This document shows positions 4,244 through 53,501 of a stretch of 61,379 bases of DNA, in pieces. Each line of letters opens with the position of its first letter. The stretch's first letter is position 1. This DNA comes from an uncultured Saprospiraceae bacterium. GTDB lineage: Bacteria; Bacteroidota; Bacteroidia; Chitinophagales; Saprospiraceae. A model generated the notes under the pieces. It had not been told where the DNA came from and did not search any database. It worked only from the letters and a program-made list of their open reading frames with translations. Location: positions 1 through 61,379 of the forward strand of contig CALJOK010000072.1 in the NCBI GenBank assembly GCA_937981555.1. The letters run 5' to 3'. A program made the position numbers and the translations under genes.

Positions 4244-6439
4244 TTATCTCACTTCCAATTCATCCATAAAAATCCATGAAGGCAATCCTGCCCCATGATG
4301 CCAAACGGGAGCAACCAAACTACTTTCTGCTTTAATTTTTATAAATCTTGTAGTCGCACCAATTCCTTGACTCGTAAAATATTGAATATGATTAATCTTA
4401 CTTTTTTTCATCAAAGGAAATTGATTCGGTAGGGTAGCAATGGGTCGGAATTTTTTTCCATCCATAGAAATTTCATAACTTACTTTTTTTGGAAAAAATA
4501 CAATGTGATTAGTTACTTGTAAAAAACCAGCAGAGATTTCATTAACAGTTTTTTCTTCGCCTAAGTCAATGATAGCTTCTAAATGTTCCCCTTCAAATCC
4601 CAACCAATTAGCATAAAAACTGCTGCTTCCAAATGCGCCATCTGTTAGTGTTTGAGGATCTTCGTTAGAATATTTTTTAGGCGACGTTAATAGTTGAACG
4701 GGTTTTTGATATGCTAAATTTTCTTTACTTGCACGCTGCAAAGTAGTTTGGTATAAATTCAAATATTCTTTAACAGTATAGCGCATTTCGTTCATTGCGG
4801 TAATATTATTTTTGGAAGTTGTTTGCTGAAATCTATCCAATCTTTCTAAAATTAATTTTCCTCCATCATCTTTTAACCCATTGTATAAATCTTTCTTTTC
4901 AAATTCCAAGATGGCGTAATCAATACTTAAGCGTGCTTCATTTACTCGATTTAAAATTTCTTGTTTTCCTTTTACTGCGGTAGCTGCGATGTTAAATAAA
5001 CTATCGTAATTCGCTAGATTATTTTTATCCAAAAAACTATTAAATCCTTGTGATGGATCGCCATATAAAAATAAAAAGAACGAACTATCCTTGGCCAATT
5101 CATCATGAACGTCTGTGATATATTCTTGAATAAATGGAGCTGCTGCTTCGTAATAATTTTCTAAAAAATCAGCAATGACTTTATCTTGATCGAGGTTTGG
5201 TTCCCATAATAATTTTGAAGTCAGATAAGAACGCAATTCAAATAATTCGCTCGGCTGATTACTATGTTGTTCAAAAATCCACGTGGCATTATTTCGATTA
5301 AATAATTGGATATTCGGTTGGAGTGTACGAAGATTAGGAAATGGTGCAAGGAAATTCGTAAACTGAGTCGTGTAATCCCAAATTCTAATATTGTCTGTAA
5401 TCGCTCCCCAACTAATTAGATCATTTTTAAAATCCTCACATTTCTTTTCAATCGAAGCACTTCGATCACACTCAATCGAACACAAGGTGATCAAAACATT
5501 TGGCTCAGGTTTGATTTCTTTTGGCGCTTTTCGAGTATACTGATAGGCGAGTGTTGAAATCTGCTTTTCGGGAAATGCCTTAGCAATTCGGTTGACAAAA
5601 TAAATCATTGAACCCGCAGCAGAATCTTCTTTTTTATGAATGGCCTCGCATTGATCGCATTGACAATATTGCGTGTTATCATCTTGACTAACTGAAATTA
5701 CTTCCGCATTCGGGTAACGTAACAGTTGTTGTTGCACAGAGTCTTTGACAATTTGATAAACCGTTTCATTAGTCAAGCAAAGTTGTGTCGGAATTCTTTT
5801 TCCATTTCTTAAAGCATAATATTCGGGATGCGATTTATAAAATTTTTCCTCTGGCATAAAGCGATGGAAGGTATGAACTTTTGCGATAGGAACGTAAGTT
5901 GGAAATGCTTCATTGGTTACTTTCCTTTTATTAGCAAAAGTGGAATCTTCATAAAATAAACGCGAGTGAACTGTACGAGTGTGAATGTCTGGAGTGTAAG
6001 TATAGCTTAGGTTTTCGGGTAGATTAATGATTTTCTGTGTTGGAATTATTTCTACTTTTGGACTGTAAAATTTACAACCTAATTCTCTTTCTAAAAATTC
6101 ATAAACGGCGTACAAAGTACTTTTCCCATTTCCTCCTTGAATTAAAAAGTCAGTATTTTTAAAACCATAATGAATGGTATGAGCATCTAAATTTTTAGAT
6201 TTCCCAATGATGATCTTAGGAGTATCTTCGTTATTTTTTTCAAAGGAAAAATCAACACCACTAATTTGAGTGAAATATTTTTTTAATTCTTCGGCAGCTA
6301 ATGTTTCATACTCATCGGCGTTTTCTAACAATGCTATTACAAAATTTGCATTTTGATTATTGTTTAGTGAAATGGTAGAATTATCTTTACAACCATAAAT
6401 TGAAATAATAAAAAGGAAGAAGTAAATATGGTTTTTCAT
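4244..6439 (-). CDS. DUF4838 lipoprotein with C-terminal discoidin-like module
   Basis: A 731-residue lipoprotein (signal ending IYGC, Cys17). Residues about 30-135 resemble the alpha/beta domain found before GH20 and GH84/GH67-type barrels (AAEELKKYFTQISG, ... YAVYEFLERELGCKFYSP). The middle is DUF4838, a family commonly found in polysaccharide loci and thought to be barrel-like, with a conserved-looking CQCDQCEAIH cysteine cluster. The last ~155 residues are the discoidin-like module shared with seven other proteins here (LTDGAFGSSS, WLGFEGEHLEAIIDLG, final SWIFMDELEVR). No chitobiase-type YTLDG domain is seen. It is the last gene of a leftward series after the acetylesterase. A glycoside-hydrolase-like role is plausible; the reaction is unknown. 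Confidence 0.85.
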   Translation of the reverse strand: MKNHIYFFLFIISIYGCKDNSTISLNNNQNANFVIALLENADEYETLAAEELKKYFTQISGVDFSFEKNNEDTPKIIIGKSKNLDAHTIHYGFKNTDFLIQGGNGKSTLYAVYEFLERELGCKFYSPKVEIIPTQKIINLPENLSYTYTPDIHTRTVHSRLFYEDSTFANKRKVTNEAFPTYVPIAKVHTFHRFMPEEKFYKSHPEYYALRNGKRIPTQLCLTNETVYQIVKDSVQQQLLRYPNAEVISVSQDDNTQYCQCDQCEAIHKKEDSAAGSMIYFVNRIAKAFPEKQISTLAYQYTRKAPKEIKPEPNVLITLCSIECDRSASIEKKCEDFKNDLISWGAITDNIRIWDYTTQFTNFLAPFPNLRTLQPNIQLFNRNNATWIFEQHSNQPSELFELRSYLTSKLLWEPNLDQDKVIADFLENYYEAAAPFIQEYITDVHDELAKDSSFFLFLYGDPSQGFNSFLDKNNLANYDSLFNIAATAVKGKQEILNRVNEARLSIDYAILEFEKKDLYNGLKDDGGKLILERLDRFQQTTSKNNITAMNEMRYTVKEYLNLYQTTLQRASKENLAYQKPVQLLTSPKKYSNEDPQTLTDGAFGSSSFYANWLGFEGEHLEAIIDLGEEKTVNEISAGFLQVTNHIVFFPKKVSYEISMDGKKFRPIATLPNQFPLMKKSKINHIQYFTSQGIGATTRFIKIKAESSLVAPVWHHGAGLPSWIFMDELEVR

Positions 6440-6484
6440 AGTTGATGTTTTGTTTTTTTAATTTCTATTTCTACGATTTTTTTT

Positions 6485-6544
6485 ACCACATAGGCACATA
6501 GATTACACAGCTTTTTTCCTATGTTTTCTATGTGCCTATGTGGT
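6485..6544. repeat. palindromic intergenic element (18-bp perfect arms)
   Basis: Arms 6485..6502 and 6527..6544 are perfect inverted complements (ACCACATAGGCACATAGA), separated by 24 nt. It lies between the acetylesterase stop and the DUF4838 start. T runs precede and A runs follow on both strands, so it does not look like an intrinsic terminator. It resembles REP-type palindromes; no second copy was seen in the window. Confidence 0.75.
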
Positions 6545-9354: not shown

Positions 9355-11424
9355 TTACTCCACCATAATCTCATCCACAAAGACCCAACAATCTGCTCCT
9401 GGCGCAGCATGCCAACTCGGATTCACCAAATTACTTTTTACCTCAACTTTGATGTAACGAGCATTTTGAGTTTTGAAAGGTAAAGTGAAATTTTTAATCA
9501 AAGCAGGTTCGGGTCCCGCGGTAGTGGGGATTGGTTTTTCAGCCACTTTTTGAAATGTTTTCCCATCTATAGAAACCAATACATTAATATGTTTTGGAAA
9601 AAATATGTACGAGCCAGTTGACTCCAAAGCACTTACCGAAACATTAGACACCTCCAAATTTTTCCCCATATCCAAAGTTGCAGTCATGCCAGATTTTTCA
9701 TAACCCAACCATTCTCCCTCGGTAAAATTGATCGTTCCTTTTTTGAAATTCACAAGAGAAAGTGCGCCCTCTGCTTTGTAGCGATCATTGGGTTTTTTAT
9801 TGAGTACGACATTGGTTGCTTGGTATTTTGCACGGACCACAGTTTTCTGGGCAGGAGGACTAACACCCCAACCATCTTTTTTTGCAATGACTTGAATATC
9901 AGAAGTTTGAGTCAACTTCAAAGGTTCTGAATATTTTAGCGAAGTAGAATCGGGAAGTGTTCCATCCAAAGTATAAAACAAATCGACACCTCTAAAATTA
10001 ATTTTAAATTCGACCAAAACGGAGTCAGTAAAAATATCTTTATCAACCATAATAAGTGGTGCCTTTAATTCGGCACTTCCAAAAATATCGTCATCTATTC
10101 CTGTATTGACTTTTAATCGAGGACGAGTATTTTTTAGTTCTTTGATTGCTTTTGGACTGACATTGGTTTGCCATAAAAAAACATTTTGCAAGCCTGCTAA
10201 TTTTGCAATCGGTTCAAGTGCATCATCTTCCAATGGCGTTCCATAGAGATTTAAATATTCTAAATATTCCAAATCATTTAGCACGTCTAAATTCTTTCCT
10301 GTCACCTGAGTTTTTTGTAAAAATAATTTTTGTAAATGAGGAAACTCACCAAGATAGGAGAGGAGATCATCATTCATATTGGTATCACTCAAATCTAATT
10401 CAATGAGTTGTTCTGAGAGTTTTTGGAGTTGTTTAAAAATACCTTTATCAAGGTCTTTTCTTCCCCGTAAAGATGCTGTTACAAAAGGTTTTTCCACAGA
10501 AACAATTTCTACAGGAATTCCAGACTGTCTTAGTTTTTGAATCGCACTTGCTTTTGCAGGTTCAATGTTAAGTGCAAAAACACTTTTATCGACTTCAGTA
10601 TATTTGGCTAAAATGGTTTTAATTTCTTCAGGTTGTTTAAGCTCTGCTACTTTCTTATCAAAATCACCGCCTTCTTTGATCCACCATTCTAACAAAGTAA
10701 TTTCATCTTTGGTCAGTTGCTTTTTCCCTTTCGGCGGCATGTGTTCTTTTTCTTCCAATGGCAAATGTGCTCGTTGTAAAAACAAACTTTTCTCAGGATT
10801 ACCTGCAACGAAAAAAGCACCCGTTTCCCCACCGTCCTTAATTCCTTCGATGGTGGTCATTAATAATTCTCCTTTTATTTTTGATTCATTATGACAGCTG
10901 ACACATTTTTGTTTAAAAATCGGTTGGACTAAATCTTGAAAAACCATTGCACTATCCATGTTGGAAATTGCGACTGTTTCATTCTTTTTTTTCCCAGAAA
11001 ATGGTTCCGTTAAAAAATCACTTCCATGTGTCAATGAACCTCCTAAGTGTCCAGTTACCCCAATTAATAACATTAAAATTCCGAAAATAGGAAAGAAGAA
11101 CCTTTTGCCTATGCGACTATTTTTTCCTTGGTGTAAGAAATAAACGATCATCGAAATCGCAGCGGTTCCTATGCCCAACCATTTATGTCTCCACAGCATT
11201 ATTTCATTATAACCACCTTCCCACGACAATAAATATCCTGAGATTGCTGCTAAGATGGCACTCCACATTCCCAGTTGAATTGCAAACCCGACAGCAGGAA
11301 GTAAGTAAGCATATTTCTCTTTTCTTCCCATCCATTCCATGATAAAAGCTACTGCCAAAATACCAATTGGTAAATGCAAAATGATCGGATGTAATCTGCC
11401 GAAAAATTGAATTAATATTTCCAT
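9355..11424 (-). CDS. membrane c-type cytochrome with LRR, chitobiase-like and discoidin-like domains
   Basis: A 689-residue fusion. Residues 1-145 are a DUF2231-like membrane domain with about four helices (HPIILHLPIGILAV, AILAAISGYLLSW, FGILMLLIGVTGHLGG). Residues about 160-255 are a planctomycete-type cytochrome domain with one haem motif (CVSCHNES) and an MPPKGK loop that may supply the distal Met. Leucine-rich repeats follow (about 330-440: LIELDLSDTNMNDDLLSYLG, LEYLNLYGTPL). Next comes a chitobiase-C-terminal/Fn3-associated-like domain (FYTLDGTLPDS near 490) and the discoidin-like tail ending CWVFVDEIMVE. It is upstream of the acetylesterase on the same strand. It likely sits in the inner membrane with the rest outside the cytoplasm. 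A redox role on or near glycans is inference; no enzyme domain other than haem binding is visible. Confidence 0.85.
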   Translation of the reverse strand: MEILIQFFGRLHPIILHLPIGILAVAFIMEWMGRKEKYAYLLPAVGFAIQLGMWSAILAAISGYLLSWEGGYNEIMLWRHKWLGIGTAAISMIVYFLHQGKNSRIGKRFFFPIFGILMLLIGVTGHLGGSLTHGSDFLTEPFSGKKKNETVAISNMDSAMVFQDLVQPIFKQKCVSCHNESKIKGELLMTTIEGIKDGGETGAFFVAGNPEKSLFLQRAHLPLEEKEHMPPKGKKQLTKDEITLLEWWIKEGGDFDKKVAELKQPEEIKTILAKYTEVDKSVFALNIEPAKASAIQKLRQSGIPVEIVSVEKPFVTASLRGRKDLDKGIFKQLQKLSEQLIELDLSDTNMNDDLLSYLGEFPHLQKLFLQKTQVTGKNLDVLNDLEYLEYLNLYGTPLEDDALEPIAKLAGLQNVFLWQTNVSPKAIKELKNTRPRLKVNTGIDDDIFGSAELKAPLIMVDKDIFTDSVLVEFKINFRGVDLFYTLDGTLPDSTSLKYSEPLKLTQTSDIQVIAKKDGWGVSPPAQKTVVRAKYQATNVVLNKKPNDRYKAEGALSLVNFKKGTINFTEGEWLGYEKSGMTATLDMGKNLEVSNVSVSALESTGSYIFFPKHINVLVSIDGKTFQKVAEKPIPTTAGPEPALIKNFTLPFKTQNARYIKVEVKSNLVNPSWHAAPGADCWVFVDEIMVE

Positions 11425-11780: not shown

Positions 11781-13886
11781 TTAATTTATATAAAGTTCAT
11801 CTAAAAACATCCAAGCTTTTCCACCTTTGCCAGGATGCCAATCAGGACATTGTCCTTGATTTTCAATTTCAAATTTTATAAATCTAGTTTGTTTATTTTT
11901 CATGGCATAATTGAATTGAATTATTTCAAATCCTTTATTTGTAGGAGTATTGTTATAATCCATTTGTGCAATTTCTTTATAGGTTTTTCCATCATCTGAA
12001 AAGGATACTTTAATATTTTTTGGAGAAAAAATCAATGAGCCAGGATGACTTAAAAAACGAACACCAACATTCTCAATAGACTGATTTTCTTTTAATTGAA
12101 CCACAGCAGTTACATTATCACCTTCATATCCTAACCAATTTCCACTATGAAAATCATCACTCCCGTTTGCTCCATCCAAAAGTGTTTTTGAACCTTTACC
12201 TGCATACTTGGGAGAGGGGAGAGGCGACAAAACAAAATCTTTTATTTGAGATGAAATTTTAGCTTCAGCAGAATATGTTTTCCCAATTTTTTTTTGGTCT
12301 AAGAATAGAACAGCGAGAATTGGTTGGCTCTCTTTTAGCGTAAATGGTTTTTGAAAAAGATCGCTTTCCAAAGTAGGTTCGCTTCCATCCAATGTATATC
12401 TAATCTCCGTATTTGAAAAAGAGCTCGACATGGAAACTTTTACTGGTTGATCAAAATGTTGTTGTTCCAATTGGATATGCGCTTGGATAAAATCATCATT
12501 GTTATTTCGAATATTTTGTGCGAGTAAAGCTTCTAATTCTTTTTTCTTTTTTGAAAAATTAGGATCAGTAGCGAGGTTCGTCGTTTCCCATTCATCTTTG
12601 TTTAAATCAAATAATTGTTCGCTCTCTTTTCCTTTGACAAAATACTTAATCAGTTTCCAATTATCATCAGTACGGACCGCTCTCATTTCTTTAGCATGTG
12701 CCAAAAACAAATGATCCCGATGTTCCGTTTTTTTATTTTTTAAAATAGGAAATAAACTTTCTCCTTCCACACTCGACGGAATTTCCAGATCCAACAAATC
12801 ACAAATCGTTGGGAAAACATCATACAAATAACAGAGTGCTTCCGTCTTCTGACGACCTTCAATATTCGGTGCAGCAATGACTAAAGGTACTCGAACACTA
12901 TGATCGTACACACTTTGTTTTCCCAACAAACCATGTTGTCCAACGGCTAAACCATTGTCTCCTGCAAAAACGATAACAGTATTTTCCATCAAGTTTTTTT
13001 CCTCCAAAATATCCAACACTCGACCTATTTGAGCATCTACTTCTGACACCATAGCGTAGTAAGCTACAAGTTCTTTTTTTATCATTTCTTCCGTTCGTGG
13101 AAAGGCAGCTAGATTCTCATCACGAGTGCGCAAATGCCCGTTATCAAAGGAATGTTCGGGCTGAAAGTTTGACGGAAGAGTAATGTTATTAGAGTCATAC
13201 ATCTTTGCAAATTCTTCAGGAGCTTCCCTTGGATCATGTGGCGAAGAGTAGGCAACGTAGAGGCAAAATGGATCTTTGGAATCTTGTTTTTCAATAAAGT
13301 CAATCGCCGCATCACTAAACATTTCACTTGAAAATTTCTCTGCTTTCCATTTATTTTTTTTGTCAAAAACTGCGGTAGAATCAAAATGCCAGAGTTGTGG
13401 TTGACGATGTCCTCCATCTTTTGGCCAATGCATTCCACCTATAAAAATATTATCTCCATCTGTAAATCCTTCTCGAATCTTGGAAGTATTATTATGCCAT
13501 TTTCCAGTAAAAAAAGTATCATAACCTTGTTCTCTCAACAACTCAGGAAAAGTCACAAAATCAAAATGAGTATCAGGAGTCGTCACGCCCATATCAATAT
13601 ATGCTCGTGGAATATTCATATAAGGTTTTCCTGAAAGTAACATCGCTCGGCTTGGAGCACAGACTCCGCCATGATGCGAACCCATGACATATGCATGAGT
13701 AAAACTTACACCCATTTCGACCAGTTTATCCATATTTGGCGTATGAATTTCTTCGTTTCCCCAAGCGTGAATAGTATTGAATCGTTGGTCGTCGGTAAAA
13801 AGGACGACTACGTTCATTGGTGATTTTTCTTTTCCGCAGGAGAAAAAGAAAGTTAGTAAAAAGAGATAAATTAATTTTTTAGCCAT
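11781..13886 (-). CDS. sulfatase (S1 family) with chitobiase-like and discoidin-like C-terminus
   Basis: A 701-residue lipoprotein (signal ending FFSC, Cys17). It hydrolyses a sulfate ester using a formylglycine made from Cys76 in the motif C76-A-P-S-R80. Metal ligands include the TDD pair at 31-33 and the later FAGDNGLAVGQHG segment; TGKWH supplies the usual Lys and His. The sulfatase part ends near 460. Residues about 490-545 are a chitobiase-C-terminal-like domain (RYTLDGSEPTLES), and 560-701 the discoidin-like module (WLGYEGDNVTAVVQL, final AWMFLDELYIN). The exact S1 subfamily and substrate cannot be read from the sequence. It is preceded on the same strand by the CBM9-like gene with a palindromic element between them. 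An anaerobic or aerobic sulfatase-maturing enzyme must exist elsewhere; none is seen here. Confidence 0.92.
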   Translation of the reverse strand: MAKKLIYLFLLTFFFSCGKEKSPMNVVVLFTDDQRFNTIHAWGNEEIHTPNMDKLVEMGVSFTHAYVMGSHHGGVCAPSRAMLLSGKPYMNIPRAYIDMGVTTPDTHFDFVTFPELLREQGYDTFFTGKWHNNTSKIREGFTDGDNIFIGGMHWPKDGGHRQPQLWHFDSTAVFDKKNKWKAEKFSSEMFSDAAIDFIEKQDSKDPFCLYVAYSSPHDPREAPEEFAKMYDSNNITLPSNFQPEHSFDNGHLRTRDENLAAFPRTEEMIKKELVAYYAMVSEVDAQIGRVLDILEEKNLMENTVIVFAGDNGLAVGQHGLLGKQSVYDHSVRVPLVIAAPNIEGRQKTEALCYLYDVFPTICDLLDLEIPSSVEGESLFPILKNKKTEHRDHLFLAHAKEMRAVRTDDNWKLIKYFVKGKESEQLFDLNKDEWETTNLATDPNFSKKKKELEALLAQNIRNNNDDFIQAHIQLEQQHFDQPVKVSMSSSFSNTEIRYTLDGSEPTLESDLFQKPFTLKESQPILAVLFLDQKKIGKTYSAEAKISSQIKDFVLSPLPSPKYAGKGSKTLLDGANGSDDFHSGNWLGYEGDNVTAVVQLKENQSIENVGVRFLSHPGSLIFSPKNIKVSFSDDGKTYKEIAQMDYNNTPTNKGFEIIQFNYAMKNKQTRFIKFEIENQGQCPDWHPGKGGKAWMFLDELYIN

Positions 13887-15212: not shown

Positions 15213-17975
15213 ATGAATTTTATGCCAACCAACTCTATCAATTTTTCATTTTTTTGCAAAAAAAATGCTTTTGTTATTTTCTTGCTATTTGCACTAAATA
15301 ATTTTGCTTTTACTCAAAATGGGTTGGTGAAATTTCAGATTGTCGATGCCACAAATGGGCGATTGACTCCTGCTAGATTGACGGTGCTCAAAGAGGGATT
15401 GCCTTTTAATGTTGAGGTAAAATCTCAACTGCAAATTGCAAGTCGGGCAAATACAATTTACACCGCAAGCGGAACAGGTGAGTTAAGACTTCCTGATGGG
15501 AAATATGAATTTTGGTTTGGAAAAGGAATGGAGTATTCGGTTGATGTTAGACAAATAGAAATTCAGACTGACTCTACGATTTTTATTTCTGCTACTTTGG
15601 AAAAAGAAATAAATACCGATGGATTTGTTGGTGGTGATATGCATTTGCATACCCTTACGAATTCGGGACATGGAGATGCTAACCTAGTTGAACGAATCAT
15701 TTCTTGTGCGGCGGAAGGATTAGATTGGGCGGTAGCAACTGATCATAATTTTCTCACAGATTATGAATCTTACATGAGAGAAGCTGGAATATTGGGATTG
15801 ATGAAAACTACGATTGGAAATGAAGTAACTACTCCAATCGGACATTTTAATACGTTTCCACTAGATACTAAAATCGAGCCTGTAGAAAGTAAAATTAAAA
15901 ATGGAAATGTCTTGTTTGAAAATATTCGTGCGGCAGCAAAGGAGGATGTGGTAATTCAAATCAATCATCCACGTTGGGTAGCTGCTGATTATTTTAATAC
16001 CAAAGGTTTGGATATTTATTTTGGAAATGTTGTGAAGAAGGAAGAGTGGAGTTGGGATTTTGATACTTATGAAGTGTTGAATGAAAATCATCAATTGGGA
16101 TGGAGAACTGCGCCTGATAATTTGCAATCTGTAAAACGAGATTGGTTTAATATGATGAACAGAGGTATTCGAAAAACTGGGATTGGAAATTCGGATAGTC
16201 ATACAGTAGTGAGTGCGATAGCAGGAGTTCCTCGAAGTTATATTTTGAGTTCTACTGATGTACCAAACGATATTGATGAGAAGGAAATAACTAAGAATAT
16301 TAAAGCTCAACGAGTTACAGTAGCTTCTGGAATATTTCCTCAAATTATGGTCGAAGGGAAAAATGCCATTGGAGAAACTTATTCTAGTAAAAATAAAACA
16401 ATACAATTACAACTTAAAGTTCAAGCAGCATCTTGGGTCAGTTGTTCCAAAGCTGAGCTGGTGAAAAATGGGGTAGTGGTTCAAGAATTTGATTTAAAGC
16501 GAAATGGAAATGCAGTTTGCTTGGACACGTTGGTTTCTGTTCAACCTGAGAAAGACAGTTGGTATATTTTGATTGCACATGGTGACAAACCGATGTTTCC
16601 GATGGTTGGAGAAATCGAAGATCCTGCAATACCACTAGGCTTTACGAATGCAACTTGGATAGATGCGGATGGAAATGGTAAAATAGTAAGTGTTTTTGAT
16701 TACGCTAAAAGGGTGGTGGATAAAAACGAAAACAATATAAAAGCATTAACTCAAGCACTTGTAAAAGAATCAGAAATTGTTCCATATGCATTTTTTCATT
16801 TGTTTTCCGAAAAGAACAAAAATGCAGTTTCGATTGCTAAAGCTTTTTTGAAAAGTGCTGACACAGAACAAAGAAGAATGCTGTTCAGAGAGTTGACAAA
16901 GACAGATATGGAGGGTGCGCAAAAAGTGTTAGAAGATTTTCAGAAAGAAATTTTGACACCATTGGAAGAAGTTGTCTTGGTTTCGTTCGTTCATTTTCCA
17001 TTGCGAAAAAATGGAGTTGCGAATTTTAAAAAAAGAAAAAATACCAAGTTGGATGACCATATGAATTATTTAGAGACTAAATTTTCCTATATCAATTCAG
17101 GAGCTATCAAACATCAGGCTTTAGTAGGATGGAATAATAGCAATACACTTCCGCATGCGTGGGAAAAGATAACAGCAGATAAAAATGCACATTTTAATTT
17201 TTCAAAAAAATCGAAAGGTTCTTATTTCCTAAAAAGTAATTGGAAAATGCGAAAGGATTCCACGCTGTATTTTTATCTCCAAACTAATGAAAAGGTGAGC
17301 TATTGGTTGAATGGAAAAATGATATATTCGATTGATCCAAATTGGAATGCTTATATTTCTAAAAAGGTAATTCCATTTAATTTGAAAAAAGGAAGTAATC
17401 AATTGATTCTTCAACTGCCTTCTTCTAAGGAAAGCAAAATTTGTTTTCATCAAGCAAGTGAAGATATGCTCCTTGACCCGCTGATGAAAATCGAAGAAGT
17501 CAACCATTTAGCTAGAAATAAATCGGTAGAATATTTAACGGAATATAGTTTTAAATATCATGGATTTGGAGAGGCTTTGACTGATGGGTATCGTGGGACG
17601 ATAGATTATAAAGGTCAACTCTGGCAAGGTTGGGAGGGAAGTGATGCGGAGTTTGTTTTGGATTTGGGAAAAGAACAAATGGTAAAAGAAATTGAAGTGG
17701 GTGTTTTGGTGAATCAAGGTGCTTGGATATTTTCCCCTCAACGTGTTGAAGTTTTAGTATCAAAGGATGGGAAGAATTTTACTTCTGTTTTTGTTGAAGA
17801 ATTAGATGCACTTATTTCGAGTTCGTCGCGAGTTGAAACGATAGGTGGAGAATTTTTATCACAAAAAATTAAGTATGTAAAAGTGATTGCGAAAAAAATT
17901 GATGGTCTTCCTGAATGGCATTCTGGTAGGGGGAAAAATGCGTGGATTTTTTTGGATGAGGTGATTGTGAAATAA
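15213..17975 (+). CDS. CehA/McbA-type PHP metallohydrolase with discoidin-like tail
   Basis: A 920-residue secreted protein with a signal peptide (hydrophobic AFVIFLLFALNNFAF). Residues about 40-135 are beta-rich; from about 140 a PHP-like metal centre is visible: GGDMHLHTLTNSGHGD, VATDHNFL, INHPRW and a GNSDSHTV motif near 325. These are the metal-binding His/Asp blocks of the CehA/McbA group, which hydrolyses ester or phosphoester-type bonds. A later section (about 650-770) resembles a beta-sandwich domain (YFYLQTNEKVSYWLNGK). The C-terminal ~155 residues are the shared discoidin-like module (LTDGYRGT, WQGWEGSDAEFVLDLG, AWIFLDEVIVK). It is the only plus-strand gene in the left half. Met4 at 15222 is an alternative start. 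Substrate unknown. Confidence 0.85.
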   Translation: MNFMPTNSINFSFFCKKNAFVIFLLFALNNFAFTQNGLVKFQIVDATNGRLTPARLTVLKEGLPFNVEVKSQLQIASRANTIYTASGTGELRLPDGKYEFWFGKGMEYSVDVRQIEIQTDSTIFISATLEKEINTDGFVGGDMHLHTLTNSGHGDANLVERIISCAAEGLDWAVATDHNFLTDYESYMREAGILGLMKTTIGNEVTTPIGHFNTFPLDTKIEPVESKIKNGNVLFENIRAAAKEDVVIQINHPRWVAADYFNTKGLDIYFGNVVKKEEWSWDFDTYEVLNENHQLGWRTAPDNLQSVKRDWFNMMNRGIRKTGIGNSDSHTVVSAIAGVPRSYILSSTDVPNDIDEKEITKNIKAQRVTVASGIFPQIMVEGKNAIGETYSSKNKTIQLQLKVQAASWVSCSKAELVKNGVVVQEFDLKRNGNAVCLDTLVSVQPEKDSWYILIAHGDKPMFPMVGEIEDPAIPLGFTNATWIDADGNGKIVSVFDYAKRVVDKNENNIKALTQALVKESEIVPYAFFHLFSEKNKNAVSIAKAFLKSADTEQRRMLFRELTKTDMEGAQKVLEDFQKEILTPLEEVVLVSFVHFPLRKNGVANFKKRKNTKLDDHMNYLETKFSYINSGAIKHQALVGWNNSNTLPHAWEKITADKNAHFNFSKKSKGSYFLKSNWKMRKDSTLYFYLQTNEKVSYWLNGKMIYSIDPNWNAYISKKVIPFNLKKGSNQLILQLPSSKESKICFHQASEDMLLDPLMKIEEVNHLARNKSVEYLTEYSFKYHGFGEALTDGYRGTIDYKGQLWQGWEGSDAEFVLDLGKEQMVKEIEVGVLVNQGAWIFSPQRVEVLVSKDGKNFTSVFVEELDALISSSSRVETIGGEFLSQKIKYVKVIAKKIDGLPEWHSGRGKNAWIFLDEVIVK

Positions 17976-18093: not shown

Positions 18094-20067
18094 TTATTCA
18101 ATTAAAATTTCATCAATAAATAACCAGGGTGGAGTTCCTTTTCCATCATGCCAATCTGGGATGCTGGAAATGTTTTTCAACACCACTTTTATAAATTTTG
18201 CCTTATCTTTTGGAAAAGTAACTTCTTCAAAATGAAGTCCGATAGGTTCTCCCTCTTTGGTAGGTTTTATTTTTTTAGTATTCAATAATTTGAAATCCTT
18301 TCCATCTTTAGAACAGTAAACTTCGATAGATTCTGGCATAAAAATCCACGAGCCTTGATCGGACAAAAGACTAGCGGTTACTTTTTGAAAATTGGTTTTT
18401 TTCTCCAACTCAATCACCGCTTCCAAATCTCCTCCTGCAAAACCCATCCAATGAGAAGTTCGAAAATTAGTCGTTCCTTTTTTTCGATCGACTAAACCTT
18501 TTGCTCCTGTGCCTGGATAATTTTTATGTGGTGTTTGGTTGATCGTAATTTTTTTGATGGGAAGTGATTTTCCTAATTTTATAAATCGAGAAGAAACAGT
18601 ATTACTAGGAAGACATTGTGGGTGAAATGCTTTTACTTTTAAAACAGCAGAATTGGTTAGCATAATTTTTTCTGAGAAAAGTGGAGACTGCTCTGTCGGT
18701 GTCGTACCATCTAAAGTGTAATGAATCCTTGCACCTTTAAGTCCTAACAATAGTTTTACATTATTTTTTTCTTCAAAAAAGATAGACTCACTTTCGATCA
18801 TCGGTGGAGCAAGTGCAAAATCAAATTCCTTTGCATAAGGATCATTTTTGTTGATTACTTTTTTGACAAATTGATTGTCGGTTTGATTTTTTCCATTGAT
18901 AAGCCACTCGTAATTAAAGTTGGCAAAATGAATTCCATCATCATTTCCATGTTCGTATAACAATCCAATTGCATTATTATTTTGAATTACTAAATCAGAG
19001 TAAGCACTTTCGCCTGCTCTAACAGTCCGACTCAATAACCAAGTTTGTCCATCATCGTAACTGACTCGGACGGTCATGTTTTCTCTTCGAACTTTGCTAT
19101 TAGGATTGGAAAATAAAAGTACTCGATCTTTATCTGGAGTGATGTATTCGATAATACTTGCTTGGCAAACAGGGGAGGGCAATTGTGCATCGAAATAAGT
19201 GCTGTCCCAAGTTGCTCCGCCATTGCTACTGATAGCGACCAATCGTTCTCGTTGACTACCATTTTGATGACGAATATTTTGCATCACTCGACCATCTGAT
19301 AATTCTACGGCATGAGATTCATTGCTACTTGGAACATCGACTGTTTCGCTTAACTGCCAAGTTTCGCCATGATCGTCACTATAAAATGCATGTGCTTTGT
19401 AGTCATTAAAATTATTGTCGGGCGGACCTTCTGAATGATTGGCTGGAACAAAAATTCGACCTTTGTGTTTATCTTGTTTTAATTGAATTGCATGACCTGG
19501 GGTATTTGCATAGGATCGCCAATCTTCTTTAAAATTATATTTTGGATTTATTGTAGGAGCATTTGGTCGATGTACGGAAGTTGTAATATTGGTAGGTGTG
19601 GACCAAGTGTCGCCATTGTCGGTACTCGTGATGTACCAAACTTCCCGTAGTCCATTTCCTTTTCGAATCTCTCCTTCGTGATTATTTCCAGTATTATAAA
19701 AAAGAAAAATCCGACCTTCTGGATATTTTGGATCGAGCATGTCTACAACAGGTGCAGCGTTGCCTGCTTGAAATTTTCCATTGTCAGCTACAATAGAAAT
19801 TTCTTTCCATGTAATTCCATTTGCATCTGCTTTTCGTAACAATATATCTACATTTCCAAAATCATTACATCCATTTACTCTTCCTTCTGCGAATGCTAGT
19901 AATTCTCCGTTGGGTGCTTTTATGATAGCAGGGATTCGGTAGCAGGCGTAACCGTTTTTTCCATTTTGGAAAACTGGGAGTTCGCTGAAATTTTGACGAG
20001 ATTGCGCTAAACTGAATGTAGCGGTCGTCATCAAAAAAACGAAAAGTAAGAGAGTGATTCTAATCAT
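18094..20067 (-). CDS. GH33 exo-alpha-sialidase with chitobiase-like and discoidin-like C-terminus
   Basis: A 657-residue secreted enzyme (signal peptide to about residue 21) that removes terminal sialic acid. It has the YRIP motif (R44, first of the Arg triad), FAEGR with Glu61, a GCNDFGNVD segment with the likely acid/base Asp, four Asp boxes (STDNGDTW 148-155, YSDDHGETW about 230-237, SSNGGATW 280-287, SYDDGQTW about 336-343), later Arg residues (R266 and the R327/R328 pair), and Tyr356 in GESAYSDL as the nucleophile. The catalytic part ends near 420. A chitobiase-type domain (HYTLDGTTPTEQS near 450) and the discoidin-like module (WMGFAGGDLEAVIEL, final WLFIDEILIE) follow. Works with the acetylesterase at 6566..9196. 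Very secure call; linkage preference unknown. Confidence 0.95.
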   Translation of the reverse strand: MIRITLLLFVFLMTTATFSLAQSRQNFSELPVFQNGKNGYACYRIPAIIKAPNGELLAFAEGRVNGCNDFGNVDILLRKADANGITWKEISIVADNGKFQAGNAAPVVDMLDPKYPEGRIFLFYNTGNNHEGEIRKGNGLREVWYITSTDNGDTWSTPTNITTSVHRPNAPTINPKYNFKEDWRSYANTPGHAIQLKQDKHKGRIFVPANHSEGPPDNNFNDYKAHAFYSDDHGETWQLSETVDVPSSNESHAVELSDGRVMQNIRHQNGSQRERLVAISSNGGATWDSTYFDAQLPSPVCQASIIEYITPDKDRVLLFSNPNSKVRRENMTVRVSYDDGQTWLLSRTVRAGESAYSDLVIQNNNAIGLLYEHGNDDGIHFANFNYEWLINGKNQTDNQFVKKVINKNDPYAKEFDFALAPPMIESESIFFEEKNNVKLLLGLKGARIHYTLDGTTPTEQSPLFSEKIMLTNSAVLKVKAFHPQCLPSNTVSSRFIKLGKSLPIKKITINQTPHKNYPGTGAKGLVDRKKGTTNFRTSHWMGFAGGDLEAVIELEKKTNFQKVTASLLSDQGSWIFMPESIEVYCSKDGKDFKLLNTKKIKPTKEGEPIGLHFEEVTFPKDKAKFIKVVLKNISSIPDWHDGKGTPPWLFIDEILIE

Positions 20068-25833: not shown

Positions 25834-25877
25834 GGTAGATTTTTTTTTAAAACCAGTCAAATAAATTCGACCGCTAC

Positions 25878-35109: not shown

Positions 35110-35165
35110 ATTTCATTTATTTTTTATCAGTAGTAAAAAATACTTACTGGTTTTATCAAAAAAAA

Positions 35166-38100: not shown

Positions 38101-38240
38101 TCTGTTCCTGCTTCTAAAATTGCGACCCCAATTAATGGGAAACCGTCAGAACCAGTAACATTTCCTGTGACTCTTTTCTGAGCCAAAGCTGTCATTGATC
38201 CTAGTAGTAGGAACAAAAAACACAGTAAATGATTTTTCAT
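35166..38240 (-). CDS. SusC/RagA-type TonB-dependent transporter
   Basis: A 1024-residue outer-membrane receptor with signal peptide (to about 20, ending ALAQ), a carboxypeptidase-regulatory-like domain (about 22-105, VTGNVTGSDGFPLIGVAI), a TonB box-like DEVVVTALG, a plug (NIQ...SGKVAGVNV, YVVDGVPMDN, GNSAAALYGSRASNGVILITT) and a long barrel ending ALQFNLGIKF. It imports oligosaccharide with the SusD partner. Its promoter region (38241..38496) is divergent from lacI and contains the operator at 38371..38386, so control by the adjacent LacI-type protein is likely. Full length and intact. Confidence 0.96.
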   Translation of the reverse strand: MKNHLLCFLFLLLGSMTALAQKRVTGNVTGSDGFPLIGVAILEAGTDNGTSSDIDGNYALDVSDGATLNFSYTGFASQSVVVGDETTLNVVLQEGVALDEVVVTALGIEKNKKALTYSVTEVGGENFSAARSMNVIQSLSGKVAGVNVSSTATGAGGSTRVVIRGNSSIGGNNQPLYVVDGVPMDNTNLGSAGMWGGKDWGDGISSLNPDDIETYTILKGNSAAALYGSRASNGVILITTKSGTNRKGIGVEFNSQVRTETVIDRLDFQQDYGHGLNGAKPTTQAEAMEQGLVSWGGKLDGSSVMQFDGVARPYSAVGSNVDRFYRTGTTFSNTLTLTGGDEKYNFRLSGSALNNEDVVPNSGLDRYNFTVKVGAKFSEKFSGTVGVNYINETVNNRANSSDAPANSNYGVQTLPASINVETLKGTTDKLGAIEDGTELLYNSNVFITNPYWTAHQVYNKSVKNRMIGNIQLRYDIYDGLYARGRISMDRYDRRRTDLLPYGTGFQPFGNIDERSNNFQELNSELILGYDKDLNETIGLSVFVGGNTMTNTFETVGGSGNTFAVPFLHTLGNAGNRSTIYNIRELGINSIFGSAEIAIKKAIYVTATARNDWFSTLTDADNTADNSELYYSAGISAVVSDLVELPSQIDFAKVRFTYAEVGGGAADPYLLSLNYGVFGQGHNGNPLGGVASGSIPPIGLVPLTSQELEFGLDLRFLQNRLGVDFSVYNKKTLNDIIAAGVSPTSGFGSKTVNVGSIENKGVELMLYGSPVKNKDFRWDVSFNYAKNNNKVLRLLTDEIEEGANRETIRLEESRTRSAYIEVVEGLPYSQIMGFEYARDDNGEMILDDNGLPTRGDLVPMGTGVHPTSIGISNTFSYKNMSLSFLIDSKSGGYIYSATNAYAYHWGLHKNTLEGRETGIGAVAAENVEDYYQAIGFSISEQFVEKADFIKLRELVFSYNLPKSKLGNLPFESVNIGIAGRNLWLISSSVDNIDPESTYTSGNGQGLEMFGVPQTRALQFNLGIKF

Positions 38241-49468: not shown

Positions 49469-51532
49469 TTATTCAACAATTATCTCATCTATAAACAGCC
49501 AAGTATTTTTTCCTTCTCCAGGCATTCCTGCAGGAATTTTATCTTTTCGGTTTACCTTTATTCTTACAAAACGAGCATTGACATTTTCAATTTTTTTATC
49601 AAAAAAGGAAATACCTTCAATGGGTGTTTTTTGAGAAACAGGCAATTCAATTGTACTCGCATTTTTAAAATTCTTTTTGTCATCCGAGAATGAAAATTCA
49701 ATTCCTTCAGGAAAATAAATCCATGAATCAGGATTTTGATAACAATTAATTCCCAAGTTTTGAATCGGCATTTTTTTTCCTAAATCTACAGTCACTTCAC
49801 CATCATTTTCATTAAAACCTGTCCAAGTATCAAACGGCAAAGAAGTGTATTTACTATATTGCCAATGTTGGCCATCTGTCAAATTTGTAAGAGCATTGTT
49901 TTCGTAACGTTTATGGGGCTTTTGTACAAATTCGTAAGTAGTGTTTAGTGCCAAATGTTTTGTAGAAACTCTATTCAAATTAGGCAGAAAATTATCGGGT
50001 GTATCCTGATATTCTTCTTGCATTTGTTGCAGCTCTTTTTTCATCTTTTCAATAATCTCCTTCGAACTTTCTGCTGCAAAAATATTAGTCATTTCCTGTG
50101 GATCATTTTCCAAATCAAATAATTCCCATTCATCGACATCATGATAATAATGAATCAATTTATAGCGATCGGTCCGTATGCCGTAATGTCTTTTCACCGC
50201 ATGCACTCCTGGAAATTCAAAGTAATGATAGTAGGCAGCATCCCGTAATTTTCCTTTGCCAGAAGTAGCAATATTTTGAAAGGATTTTCCTTGCATATCG
50301 ACTGGAATTGGAAGTCCTGCAAAAGTCAACATCGTTGGTGCAAAATCCAAATTCATCAATAAAGCATCTGAAGTAGTTCCAGCTTTTATTTGCTCAGGCA
50401 ACTGCATCAACATTGGCATTCGGTAAGATTCTTCGTACATAAATCGCTTATCATACCAACCATGTTCCCCCAAATAAAACCCTTGGTCCGAAGTGTAAAT
50501 GATTAAGGTATTTTTATCCAAACCTTCTTTTTCCAAATAATCTAACACTCTACCTACATTGTCATCGACCGAGGCGATACATCTTAAATAATCTTTGATG
50601 TAGCGTTGGTATTTCCATTTCACCAATTCTTTGCCTGAAAGATTCGCCTCTATAAAAGCTTGATTTTTTGGTTCATAAGCAGCAAGCCAAGCGATTCGTT
50701 GTTCTTCCGTCATAGATTTTATACGACTAGGCATCCAATCTTTTTGCCAACCTTGATTTGCATTTTTACTCGTGTGAACTTTTAGATCGTAGGACTCATC
50801 CATATGATTTGCAATCGTCATTTCTTGACTACTGGCCGCCGATGTTCTACCTTTATAATCATCAAATAAGGAAGCTGGTTCAGGAATTTCGACATCATCA
50901 TACATCGTCAAATGATCTGGACTGGGCATCCAATTTCGATGAGGCGCTTTGTGTTGCAACATCAAAAAGAACGGTTTTTCTTCATCTCTTTTTCCTAACC
51001 AATCTAAAGCAAAGTCTGTCGTCAAATTAGTAACGTATCCTGTATATTCTTTTCGCTCACCCATCTCTATAAAAATTGGATTATAATATAATCCTTGCCC
51101 TGGCAATACATTCCAATAATCAAAACCTGTCGGATGAGATTTTAAATGCCACTTGCCAATCATGGCAGTTTGGTAACCACCTTCTTTCATTAATTTTGGC
51201 AGCGTCTGTTGTGAGCCATCAAAAGTTTGAGCATTATTGAGCACTCCATTAAAGTGACTGTGCTTGCCTGTGAGGATCACCGCACGACTTGGAGCGCAAA
51301 TGGAATTGGTGCAATAAGTTCTGTCAAAACGAATTCCGTTATTGGCAATTCTGTCAAGATTGGGCGTTTGGTTGATACGACTTCCGTAAGCACTCATGGC
51401 TTGAGTGGCGTGGTCATCGGTCATGATAAAAATTATATTGGGACGTTCTTCCGATTGAGTTACTTTGGTTTCTGAGCAACTATTAAATAGGAATAAAATT
51501 GGAAAATAGGAGAGGAGGAAGATTTTTTTCAT
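49469..51532 (-). CDS. sulfatase (S1_11-like, possible GlcNAc-6-sulfatase) with discoidin-like tail
   Basis: A 687-residue lipoprotein (signal ending LFNSC, Cys19). Formylglycine Cys79 lies in C79-A-P-S-R83, with the TDD pair at 38-40. The context RTYCTNSICAPSRAVILTGK and the following HSHFNGVLNN match the S1_11 group, whose characterised members remove 6-O-sulfate from GlcNAc. IGKWHLKSHP, LLMNLDFAPTMLTFAGLP, and YTSDQGFYLGEHGW agree. The last ~145 residues are the discoidin-like module, ending TWLFIDEIIVE; no chitobiase-type domain. It is the last gene of the leftward operon GH92-sulfatase-sulfatase (137 bp after the previous gene, with a palindromic element between). Family call secure, substrate inferred. 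Confidence 0.92.
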   Translation of the reverse strand: MKKIFLLSYFPILFLFNSCSETKVTQSEERPNIIFIMTDDHATQAMSAYGSRINQTPNLDRIANNGIRFDRTYCTNSICAPSRAVILTGKHSHFNGVLNNAQTFDGSQQTLPKLMKEGGYQTAMIGKWHLKSHPTGFDYWNVLPGQGLYYNPIFIEMGERKEYTGYVTNLTTDFALDWLGKRDEEKPFFLMLQHKAPHRNWMPSPDHLTMYDDVEIPEPASLFDDYKGRTSAASSQEMTIANHMDESYDLKVHTSKNANQGWQKDWMPSRIKSMTEEQRIAWLAAYEPKNQAFIEANLSGKELVKWKYQRYIKDYLRCIASVDDNVGRVLDYLEKEGLDKNTLIIYTSDQGFYLGEHGWYDKRFMYEESYRMPMLMQLPEQIKAGTTSDALLMNLDFAPTMLTFAGLPIPVDMQGKSFQNIATSGKGKLRDAAYYHYFEFPGVHAVKRHYGIRTDRYKLIHYYHDVDEWELFDLENDPQEMTNIFAAESSKEIIEKMKKELQQMQEEYQDTPDNFLPNLNRVSTKHLALNTTYEFVQKPHKRYENNALTNLTDGQHWQYSKYTSLPFDTWTGFNENDGEVTVDLGKKMPIQNLGINCYQNPDSWIYFPEGIEFSFSDDKKNFKNASTIELPVSQKTPIEGISFFDKKIENVNARFVRIKVNRKDKIPAGMPGEGKNTWLFIDEIIVE

Positions 51533-51566
51533 GGTTCTGGTTTTAATTTTTTTTTTATGAATTGTA

Positions 51567-51668
51567 GATCATAAAGTACGGTCGAATTGATTCGCCTTAT
51601 AAATCCTATAGTTGAACCTAATAGTGATGGGCGAATAAATTCGCCTGTACTTTATCCATGCTAAATAG
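51567..51668. repeat. palindromic element family C, copy 2
   Basis: Left arm includes TAAAGTACGGTCGAATTGATTCGCC-like sequence (about 51573..51596) and the right arm GGGCGAATAAATTCGCC...TACTTTATCCATGC (51630..51662). The centre matches copy 1 (13904..14016). The right edge abuts the TAA stop of the sulfatase gene at 51669. Confidence 0.75.
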
Positions 51669-53501
51669 TTAGTTTACAATTATCTCATCAGCAAATATCC
51701 AACAATCTTTTCCTGCTCCATCATGACCTTCTGGACATTTTCCTTGGCTATAAGCAATGACTTTTATGTACCGAGTTTTTCGTTCTACCTTTTCTTTTGT
51801 AGAAAAATAAAATACACTACTCATTTTATCAACAAGGTTGGTATCTATTTCTTGTGTATCTATTTTTTCAAAATCCTTTCCATTCTGAGAGATCAAAAAT
51901 TCAACTTTTTTTGGAAAAAAAATCCAACTGGGTTGATTTTGGAGAAAACCGATTTTTATTTCTTTAATCGTTTTTTCCTCTTCCAAATCAATAATTGCTT
52001 CGAGGTTGTCTCCTTCAAAACCCATCAATGTCCGAAATCGATCTGCCCCTTCTGTAAATCCATCTGTCAATGTATTTGTATTGTTATAATTTGGGTGAGG
52101 AGGACTTTTTAAAGTTACTTTTTTCTCAAAAGCTAAATGTTCTTTTCGACTCGCCAATCTTTCTTTTTGGAAAAAATCAGGTTGTGCATTGATTTCATTT
52201 TTATGATTTTCGATTTCTTGTAACAATTCATTTACAACTTTCGGAAACTTCTCAGCCAAATCATATTTCTCTGAAGGGTCTTCATTGATGTTAAAAAGCA
52301 AAGGAGTTTTTCCTTCAAAGTATTGTCGTTTGGTTTGGCTAGAAGTGTGAATATGAAGTTTCCATTTTCCTTTCCGAATGGCATGTAATTTCTTAGATCC
52401 ATAAAAGAAAAATGGTTCCTCTGCTAATTTTTCAGACTTCTTTCCTAAAAATAAATTAGAAATATCTTTCCCATCATAAACCGTTTCCTTTGGAATTTCT
52501 TGCCCCACCAATTTCAATAAACTAGTGTACAAATCCAAAGAACTGGTAGGTTGGGTATTTAAAATAGCAGGAGCAATTTTCCCTTCCCAATGTGCAATCA
52601 TAGGTACTCGCATTCCTCCTTCCCAAGTACTGCCTTTGCCATCTCGCAATAACCCTGATGAACCACCTTCTTCATTTTTGATAATCCATGGACCATTATC
52701 ACTTACAAAAATGACTAGCGTATTTTTTGATAAGTCATTGACTTCCAATGACTTAAGAATCTTTCCTACACTCCAATCTAACTCTTCTACTACATCGCCA
52801 TAAGTTCCTCTTAATGATTTTCCAGCAAATGCTGCCCCTGGATGCAATGGCAAATGTGGCATGGCATAAGGCACATAAATAAAAAATGGATCACGGGAAT
52901 GTTTTGTTATAAAATCAATCGTTCGTTCGGTGTATTGCTTGGTCAAGGTCTTTTGATCTGGATTAACACTAATCGTATCATTCCCTTCAAGGAGTGGAAT
53001 GTCGTTCCAAAGTGGCGGAATCATATCATTAGAATAAGGCAATCCGAAGTATTCATCAAAACCATTTTGGAGTGGAAGGTATTCTTTTTTGGTTGTTCCT
53101 AAATGCCATTTTCCGAAACAAGCAGTTGCATAACCAGCATCTTTCATTCCTTCTGCCAATGTATATTCATTAGCATGAATTCCTCGAGAAGAATTTGGAT
53201 AAAGCACCCATTGAAAACCTGAACGAATAGGGTAGCGACCCGTTAATAAAGCGTATCTACTTGCCGTACACGCAGGAGAACCAGAATAAAAATTAGTAAA
53301 TTTCATCCCTTGAACTGCCATTGCATCTAGGTTCGGAGTGCGAATCGTAGGATGTCCGTAAACGCCCAAATCGCCATATCCTAAATCATCAGCAAATAAA
53401 ATGATGATATTTGGAGAAGCATTTTCTATTTCATTTGAAGAGCTACAGTTTTGTAACAATACAAATACAAGAAGTAGAAGAATGATAGATTTAAATTTCA
53501 T
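51669..53501 (-). CDS. sulfatase (arylsulfatase/GALNS-like) with discoidin-like tail
   Basis: A 610-residue lipoprotein (signal ending LQNC, Cys19). The formylglycine motif is C78-T-A-S-R82, the less common C-x-A-x-R form. ADDLGYGDLGVYGHPTIRTP, FYSGSPACTASRYALLTGRYPIRSG, CFGKWHLGTT and FVSDNGPW follow the arylsulfatase A/N-acetylgalactosamine-6-sulfatase pattern. The sulfatase core ends near 440; the discoidin-like module follows (FRTLMGFEGDNLEAIIDLE, final CWIFADEIIVN), without a chitobiase-type domain. It starts 6 bp after the GH92 stop and is clearly in that operon. Substrate unknown. Confidence 0.92.
   Translation of the reverse strand: MKFKSIILLLLVFVLLQNCSSSNEIENASPNIIILFADDLGYGDLGVYGHPTIRTPNLDAMAVQGMKFTNFYSGSPACTASRYALLTGRYPIRSGFQWVLYPNSSRGIHANEYTLAEGMKDAGYATACFGKWHLGTTKKEYLPLQNGFDEYFGLPYSNDMIPPLWNDIPLLEGNDTISVNPDQKTLTKQYTERTIDFITKHSRDPFFIYVPYAMPHLPLHPGAAFAGKSLRGTYGDVVEELDWSVGKILKSLEVNDLSKNTLVIFVSDNGPWIIKNEEGGSSGLLRDGKGSTWEGGMRVPMIAHWEGKIAPAILNTQPTSSLDLYTSLLKLVGQEIPKETVYDGKDISNLFLGKKSEKLAEEPFFFYGSKKLHAIRKGKWKLHIHTSSQTKRQYFEGKTPLLFNINEDPSEKYDLAEKFPKVVNELLQEIENHKNEINAQPDFFQKERLASRKEHLAFEKKVTLKSPPHPNYNNTNTLTDGFTEGADRFRTLMGFEGDNLEAIIDLEEEKTIKEIKIGFLQNQPSWIFFPKKVEFLISQNGKDFEKIDTQEIDTNLVDKMSSVFYFSTKEKVERKTRYIKVIAYSQGKCPEGHDGAGKDCWIFADEIIVN

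Follow-up and report, generated by a model that had tools for sequence, protein, structure and literature searches.

The sequence considered here, referred to as the window, comprises 61,379 nucleotides of contig CALJOK010000072.1 from an uncultured Saprospiraceae bacterium (GenBank assembly GCA_937981555.1; genome size 7.25 Mb). A first-pass annotation, covering positions 4,244 to 53,501, described eight window proteins of unlike chemistry that end in the same discoidin-like module. These are a DUF4838 protein, a cytochrome, three sulfatases, a PHP protein, a sialidase-like protein and a glycoside hydrolase of family GH20. The modules are located as follows, with module scores in bits.

4247..4699, minus strand: module of the DUF4838 protein (gene 4244-6439; 185 bits; DUF4838 E-value: 6.8e-107; P-x-W-H loop present)
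9358..9810, minus strand: module of the cytochrome (DUF2231/PSCyt1/LRR, Pfam domains; gene 9355-11424; 198.3 bits)
11784..12230, minus strand: module of a sulfatase (gene 11781-13886; 204.6 bits; Sulfatase E-value: 6e-50)
17526..17972, plus strand: module of the CehA/McbA-type PHP protein (gene 15213-17975; 190.9 bits; NF038032 E-value: 1.5e-35)
18097..18549, minus strand: module of the sialidase-like protein (gene 18094-20067; 202.4 bits; BNR_2 E-value: 4e-34)
20497..20937, minus strand: module of the GH20 protein (gene 20494-22830; 188.8 bits; GH20 E-value: 7.9e-128; G at the loop Trp position)
49472..49939, minus strand: module of a sulfatase (gene 49469-51532; 200.2 bits; Sulfatase E-value: 2.1e-57)
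51672..52118, minus strand: module of a sulfatase (gene 51669-53501; 199.9 bits; Sulfatase E-value: 1.1e-61)

The protein encoded at 15213 matches metallohydrolases of the CehA/McbA type. The GH33 label originally given to gene 18094 rests on BNR_2 and BNR_3 matches, hence the name sialidase-like. All eight proteins end in the motif W-[ILMV]-F-x-D-E-[ILV]-x-[VI]-x-stop, which is absent from the remaining 25 of the 33 window proteins examined. The tails can be aligned across approximately 150 residues with a mean column identity of 46% (alignment A1, eight rows). Hidden Markov models built from seven tails retrieve the eighth at 118-149 bits; in a test set of the 33 window proteins and 23 F5/8 loci elsewhere in the bacterium's own genome, only one other sequence scores, a distantly related GH20 tail encoded on contig C61 (47-53 bits). 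The A1 profile, which was also used for the genome searches below, finds the eight tails in the own genome at 185-205 bits, the C61 protein at 54.7 bits and one more protein at 12.4 bits. The claim of one common C-terminal module, closer than generic discoidin domains are to each other and not spread over housekeeping proteins, is borne out by these searches, the last of which led to the rejection of a housekeeping tail. Two further segments cited in the first-pass annotation are loose, as the exact SWIF.P is present in only two of the eight tails and the exact W[LIMT]GxxG in only four. Whatever the carrier type, Y, W-x-G, I-F-x-P, P-x-W-H-x-G-x-G and W-x-F-x-D-E are nearly invariant, and the module's own signature is P-x-W-H-x-G-x-G...W-x-F-x-D-E. 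PF00754 (F5/8 type C) hits all eight tails with E-values of 1.8e-4 or better, four of them above the Pfam gathering score; at an E-value of 0.1 or lower it has 36 matches in the own genome, eight being these tails.

In four carriers the module is preceded by an Fn3_assoc/chitobiase-like domain. These are exactly the four named earlier (the cytochrome, sulfatase 11781, the sialidase-like protein and the GH20 protein); Pfam gives no Fn3_assoc match in the other four, and the module alone ends two sulfatases, the PHP protein and the DUF4838 protein. Three of the domains are placed as follows.

9859..10029, minus strand: Fn3_assoc/chitobiase-like domain of the cytochrome (PF13287 E-value: 9.4e-11; PF13290 E-value: 6.3e-10)
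12270..12458, minus strand: Fn3_assoc/chitobiase-like domain of sulfatase 11781 (PF13290 E-value: 2.6e-11; PF13287 E-value: 1.6e-10)
20971..21144, minus strand: Fn3_assoc/chitobiase-like domain of the GH20 protein (PF13287 E-value: 1.6e-11)

The two-domain unit of the sialidase-like protein, one of the eight, was modelled with AlphaFold (predicted local distance difference test [pLDDT]: 95.5; predicted template modelling score [pTM]: 0.88). The top Foldseek hit of this model is BT0459 (PDB 6q63), a GH20 N-glycan hexosaminidase of Bacteroides thetaiotaomicron, across both domains (E-value: 1.3e-20; template modelling [TM] score: 0.61; root-mean-square deviation: 7.2). Later hits are fucosidase, sialidase and carbohydrate-binding module (CBM) family CBM32 structures, some with galactose or N-acetyllactosamine bound. 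On the basis of the model, the module is an F5/8-type (CBM32-like) domain with the discoidin beta-sandwich fold. BT0459 is also the only strong PDB hit by sequence: a two-domain profile matches 6q63 residues 562-774 (E-value: 1.2e-54, 189 bits; next hit 1.1e-05) and the A1 profile scores it at 120 bits. Like the proteins described here, BT0459 has the Fn3_assoc-like domain and the discoidin module at its exact C-terminus. PMC10154615 gives antenna GlcNAc (N-acetylglucosamine) of N-glycans as its substrate. The fold, the two-domain unit and the use of this unit in a GH20 enzyme are already known. BT0459 represents a single enzyme type, whereas in the window the same unit also ends a sulfatase, the sialidase-like protein and a cytochrome. 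The discoidin beta-sandwich is common to the module and to CBM32 (CpGH84C CBM32, PDB 2j1a and 2j1e), but CBM32-titled Foldseek rows are only 11-19% identical to the module, which differs in its strictly C-terminal place and its own signature.

Relatives of the module were sought in 150 genomes of the family and 395 of the phylum. At a threshold E-value of 1e-6, matches were found in 101/150 family genomes and in 103/395 phylum genomes, with only part of the candidates per genome scored in the phylum survey. Gene neighbourhoods were read in 80 family regions surrounding higher-ranking matches (one of them in the own genome), 20 phylum regions and 80 named loci. The named loci are the best 80 of 584 cytochrome relatives and are biased to full-length cytochromes; as they were chosen via the cytochrome, they over-represent modules of the cytochrome and of a catalytic-domain-free, stand-alone Fn3/module protein (hereafter Fn3-only). 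The family regions contain 105 modules, all at most 6 residues from the stop codon. The phylum regions and named loci add 144 (29 and 115, respectively), of which 141 lie at most 7 residues from the stop and three, of Phaeodactylibacter type, lie 22 residues from it. The module is thus C-terminal in all 249 carriers read (237 distinct once repeats are removed), and none of the 249 has two modules. As a control, 21 generic F5/8 matches in the own genome (12 contigs, several matches per protein) were placed in the same way: 20 are at least 103 residues from the stop and one is at 13. The 22nd locus is the C61 GH20 protein, and six weaker matches lie outside this control. Judged by sequence, the module is one Bacteroidota-wide subfamily that is C-terminal, frequently has an Fn3_assoc domain in front of it and is not peculiar to the window locus.

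The carriers in the loci read are mainly glycoprotein-glycan-type enzymes. Carrier clusters in the family regions (window included, two short pieces left out) are cytochrome (27), GH92 (18), GH20 (17), Fn3-only (15), sulfatase (13), DUF4838 (7), PHP (4), GH29 (4), sialidase-like (3), GH2 (2) and a DUF7133/HEAT/plastocyanin protein (1). Additional carriers in the phylum loci are GH38, GH42-like and, by a weak match, GH78-like proteins. The earlier statement that mannosidases lack the module holds within the window only, as the module does occur in relatives on GH92 and GH38 mannosidases. Carriers may lie close together (GH29, DUF4838, GH20 and GH92 within 22 kb in genome G168; GH29, GH20 and GH92 within 14 kb in G333) or apart, as in G091, where ten modules are spread over seven contigs. 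The DUF7133/HEAT/plastocyanin-type protein that ends in the module (L135:5059-8484) is a second redox-type carrier.

A quick tree was made of 167 modules (rows with X or fewer than 125 aa dropped; named cytochrome and Fn3-only modules taken only from loci numbered divisible by four; support below 80 on 78 of 164 inner branches). The carrier label changes 31 times on this tree, compared with a shuffled mean of 107.7, and the modules group in it by carrier enzyme, not by genome. For seven window modules the nearest relative is in G078, a genome of the same genus, and for the DUF4838 module it is in G091; the G078 pattern alone would leave an older duplication possible. Beyond the genus, same-carrier grouping holds for the DUF4838, cytochrome, PHP and GH20 modules and for those of sulfatases 11781 and 49469, while the module of sulfatase 51669 groups with G078 only. 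From the grouping beyond the genus, the cluster seems to have gathered enzymes already bearing the module. A locus-specific tag spread by recent duplication was considered and rejected, as the window modules cluster with the same enzyme of other genomes.

The cytochrome that carries the module belongs to a recurrent operon. Clustering of neighbouring genes gives the order PSCyt1/PSCyt2/PSD1, DUF1501, NHL, Fn3-only and cytochrome, and the 80 named loci include DUF1501 in 73, PSCyt2 in 70, NHL in 47, Fn3-only in 34 and a tailed cytochrome in 78. In 28 of 33 adjacent pairs, the distance from the Fn3-only stop to the cytochrome start is -8 to +11 nt. Besides the cytochrome, the following members are present in the window.

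22885..23943, minus strand: NHL-repeat protein of the redox operon (NHL E-value: 8.9e-13; in 47/80 named loci)
24352..25860, minus strand: DUF1501 protein of the redox operon (PF07394 E-value: 2.4e-158; in 73/80 named loci)
25878..28217, minus strand: PSCyt1-PSCyt2(DUF1549)-PSD1(DUF1553) protein of the redox operon (in 70/80 named loci)

The PSCyt1/PSCyt2/PSD1 protein has two CxxCH motifs, and its AlphaFold model (pTM: 0.84; mean pLDDT: 82) has no fold match among solved structures at an E-value of 0.001 or lower. PADLOC gives no match for four operon proteins, leaving a defence-system reading unsupported. The cytochrome has the domain order DUF2231, PSCyt1, LRR-like, Fn3_assoc and module (DUF2231 and LRR below the Pfam cut-off). 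In its DUF2231 part, five histidines (H12, H17, H80, H126 and H133) are invariant in 15 aligned sequences and are possibly heme b or quinone ligands. Heme attachment at CxxCH motifs is periplasmic, so the cytochrome, which would be of inner-membrane type, is predicted to place its tail in the periplasm. The N-termini of the eight carriers are mixed (lipobox, plain signal peptide or membrane), as classified with a simple hydrophobicity and lipobox heuristic. The operon, together with a module-bearing GH20 gene, is also present in L214, a metagenome-assembled genome labelled Calditrichia, by transfer or mis-binning.

The sialidase-like protein is related to the Fn3-only protein of this operon, as its C-terminal part makes clear.

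18097..18846, minus strand: last 250 residues of the sialidase-like protein, homologous to the Fn3/module protein (56% identity to L087)

These residues match L087 residues 30-279 (of 279 aa) end to end; the best other window carrier reaches 31% identity. In the module tree, the sialidase-like tail falls in a set of six rows made up of four Fn3-only and two sialidase-like proteins. A third sialidase-like carrier (L095, in G091) has a tail 50% identical to that of the window protein; its module sits elsewhere in the tree, beside another Fn3-only protein (support 87). No match of Fn3-only size was found in G000, G078 or G091, all of which have the sialidase-like protein, and in the window the gene lies between NHL and the cytochrome. 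The window protein is, so far as its sequence tells, a sialidase-type domain fused to the redox operon's Fn3/module partner.

Relatives of the cytochrome without the tail are common. A search with the cytochrome minus its tail gave 66 matches in 37/296 genomes, of which, by reading-frame length, 16 look tailed and 42 tail-less, the other 8 being of a different type. Both PSCyt2 and DUF1501 are present in 15 of the 19 tail-less loci read. In tail-less loci, 14/16 PSCyt2 hits are 888-1164 aa long (the other two are 283 and 479 aa), compared with at most 792 aa in 62/64 PSCyt2 proteins beside tailed cytochromes. The two long exceptions beside tailed cytochromes are L232 (881 aa) and L247 (1068 aa), both of which appear to owe their extra length to a wrongly called start or to a reading frame that crosses masked bases. 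Six long PSCyt2 proteins from tail-less loci were scanned, and CBM6 was found in one and Laminin_G_3 in three. No CBM was found in any of 37 PSCyt2 proteins scanned beside tailed cytochromes (that of the window and 36 of 57 distinct sequences of 700-900 aa, with L232 and L247 outside the scan). A carbohydrate-type module thus tends to be present on some protein of these operons, an observation that favours a binding role for the tail.

The window also contains a polysaccharide utilisation locus (PUL), in that a SusC/SusD pair is accompanied by GH92, GH47, GH130, GH20 and sulfatases.

33607..38240, minus strand: SusD-like and SusC-like (TonB plug) pair, upstream of the operon and adjoining PSCyt2 in G078 (SusD-like_2 E-value: 6.5e-87; TonB plug E-value: 7.1e-18)

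The window order is PSCyt2 (25878), DUF1501 (24352), NHL (22885), GH20, sialidase-like, PHP (other strand), CBM9 protein, sulfatase and cytochrome (9355). In G078, an uninterrupted run of SusC, SusD, PSCyt2, DUF1501, NHL, GH20 and sialidase-like genes precedes those for PHP, sulfatase and cytochrome; GH92, GH47 and GH130 lie between SusD and PSCyt2 in the window and are absent from that place in G078. In G091, the cytochrome directly follows DUF1501, with the sialidase-like gene placed on a different contig. From these three gene orders, the redox operon was opened and filled with PUL genes in the window's genus. A CBM9-like protein is encoded at 14017-15171; its relatives occur near the operon (L085, L087 and L117) or near a module-bearing GH20 gene (L142).

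On this evidence we lean, with some reserve, towards reading the module as a discoidin-type, probable carbohydrate-binding module of glycoprotein-glycan-type proteins that has found a second home on the redox operon. The proposed model is built on three elements. The window would encode a utilisation locus for sialylated, sulfated N-glycans, comprising SusCD, the sialidase-like protein, GH20, sulfatases, GH92, GH47 and GH130. The redox operon would be woven into this locus, its Fn3/module protein having been joined to a sialidase domain. The module would hold periplasmic and outer-membrane enzymes, as well as the redox complex, on N-glycan-derived oligosaccharides. Because it also ends the operon's membrane cytochrome, the module may link glycan breakdown to redox, rather than mark one cell-surface scaffold. 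We infer that the module binds carbohydrates and that, around a core common to all carriers, its specificity varies with the carrier.

Several observations weigh against a carbohydrate-binding role of this kind. The Trp-His loop is W-H in 5/8 window modules and G-x in 3/8 (GH20 and sulfatases 49469 and 51669 lack the Trp), and the W-H pair is present in 133/167 tree rows: in 48/48 cytochromes, 23/23 Fn3-only proteins and 11/11 DUF4838 proteins, but in only 8/25 GH20 rows and 8/13 sulfatases. As the loop is not kept in all, the carriers probably differ somewhat in ligand. No glycan link is known for some carriers, such as PHP and the DUF7133/plastocyanin protein. Nor is a PUL of this kind a general neighbour of the operon, since the window SusC has a match in 6/80 and the SusD in 0/80 named cytochrome loci (diverged pairs would be missed). 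The PSCyt2 tree has 2 changes, so the CBM swap represents one or two independent events only, and two of the six long PSCyt2 proteins show no named insert. The mutual orientation of the two domains may differ from that in BT0459, given the TM score and deviation over the pair. Finally, PMC2789033 reports that in another discoidin domain aromatic mutations affect stability more than binding; by analogy, the invariant aromatics of the module may serve folding.

Other functions of the tail can be weighed against the same observations. The Fn3/module unit could instead be a protein-protein docking piece: the Fn3-only protein, the cytochrome tail and the enzyme tails would bind one another or a single shared partner, which would put enzymes onto the membrane redox complex. 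The Fn3-only gene directly precedes a cytochrome with the same end unit, the sialidase-like domain is fused to the Fn3/module protein between NHL and the cytochrome, the module is strictly C-terminal, and a figure legend in PMC5615132 classes F5_F8 as a protein-protein interaction domain in PSCyt proteins. However, CBM6 or Laminin_G_3 takes its place on PSCyt2 in 4/6 related proteins scanned, none of the 249 carriers has two modules, and the module occurs in genomes with no cytochrome match at an E-value of 1e-40 or lower (e.g. G156, G161, G170, G174, G178, G182, G262 and G398; lists compared by eye). Docking is a possible but rather unlikely function. An improbable alternative is that the module acts chiefly as a folding domain or structural end-cap that each enzyme has inherited, with little part in binding. 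This alternative would agree with the grouping of modules by carrier, with the loss of Trp-His in 17/25 GH20 rows and with the stability effects reported in PMC2789033, but not with the occurrence of the module as a stand-alone secreted protein, nor with the frequency of tail-less cytochromes (42/66 matches by reading-frame length), which indicates that the cytochrome folds without the tail.

The first-pass annotation had favoured a common tag gathering all eight enzymes on one surface ligand, a cellulosome without a scaffold. That a shared tail on unlike chemistries reflects common targeting is possible, and the tail is indeed one real, CBM32-like module. The presence of eight carriers in one PUL-like cluster and the residues kept nearly invariant across carrier types (W-x-G and W-x-F-x-D-E) are in keeping with such a tag. 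Its more specific parts fare poorly. A locus-specific system is unsupported because the modules follow carrier type across genomes and occur in 103/395 phylum genomes. The scatter of the ten G091 modules over seven contigs likewise speaks against the common tag. Gathering of all eight at the surface is unsupported because the cytochrome would be an inner-membrane type with periplasmic heme c and the N-termini are mixed by the heuristic; one identical ligand is unsupported because the eight do not all have the same Trp-His loop. Neither dockerin nor cohesin profiles matched any of the 32 window proteins scanned (of 34 listed open reading frames [ORFs], 1466-2209 and 15861-16406 being outside the scan), contrary to the likeness to a cellulosome. 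We regard the surface tag as decidedly improbable. Least credible of all is a C-terminal secretion signal comparable to type IX sorting domains. The module is always C-terminal and, by eye, the tails of several generic F5/8 proteins in the genome look like those of the type IX secretion system (T9SS), but the carriers have lipoboxes or membrane helices, the fold is that of discoidin, and neither Por_Secre_tail nor CHU_C profiles match any of the eight. BT0459 has the module as well, although Bacteroides is not known to have a T9SS.

The favoured reading, a carbohydrate-binding module shared by glycan enzymes and a redox operon, differs from the systems to which it can be compared. Sus-type N-glycan PULs of Bacteroides (see PMC10154615) have SusCD, GH92, GH20, a sialidase-like protein and GH130 in common with the window; unlike them, the window has a PSCyt operon and GH47 in the cluster and a common C-terminal module on eight genes. 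Planctomycete-type cytochrome operons (PSCyt1/PSCyt2/PSD1 and DUF1501) share their domain set with the window operon, but here the DUF2231 cytochrome and a distinct Fn3/module gene carry the binding-type module, and genes of an N-glycan-type PUL are interspersed with the operon. PMC5615132 reports CBMs on PSCyt proteins of Verrucomicrobia and describes PSCyt-type operons with PSD domains as frequent and of unknown function. The open-licence literature searched yielded no account in which sulfatases, a PHP protein and the cytochrome of a PSCyt operon share one C-terminal module. A module common to the cytochrome of such an operon and to N-glycan-type enzymes offers a testable handle on the operon's substrate, and a C-terminal CBM-like subfamily recognisable by sequence across Bacteroidota would be useful for predicting PUL substrates. 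More speculatively, and with a good deal of doubt, the module might physically link a periplasmic c-type cytochrome machine (PSCyt2-DUF1501-NHL-Fn3/module-DUF2231 cytochrome) to exo-acting glycoprotein-glycan enzymes, via the same oligosaccharides or via each other, such that glycans are oxidised, or electrons drawn, during trimming. If so, the fusion of a sialidase-like domain to the Fn3/module protein in a genome without a free Fn3-only copy would be a direct trace of glycan-redox coupling.

Other genes of the window were also noted. A glucosamine-6-phosphate isomerase-like and PIG-L deacetylase fusion protein is encoded at 55883-59757 and adjoins a sodium:solute symporter; in L108, L129, L131 and L133, GH20 genes that bear the module are flanked by relatives of these two genes. 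T9SS-type tails are present on the proteins encoded at 47165-49414 (CHU_C, with SprB repeat) and 3592-4101 (Por_Secre_tail). A DDE transposase-like ORF is located at the contig edge (1-1395).

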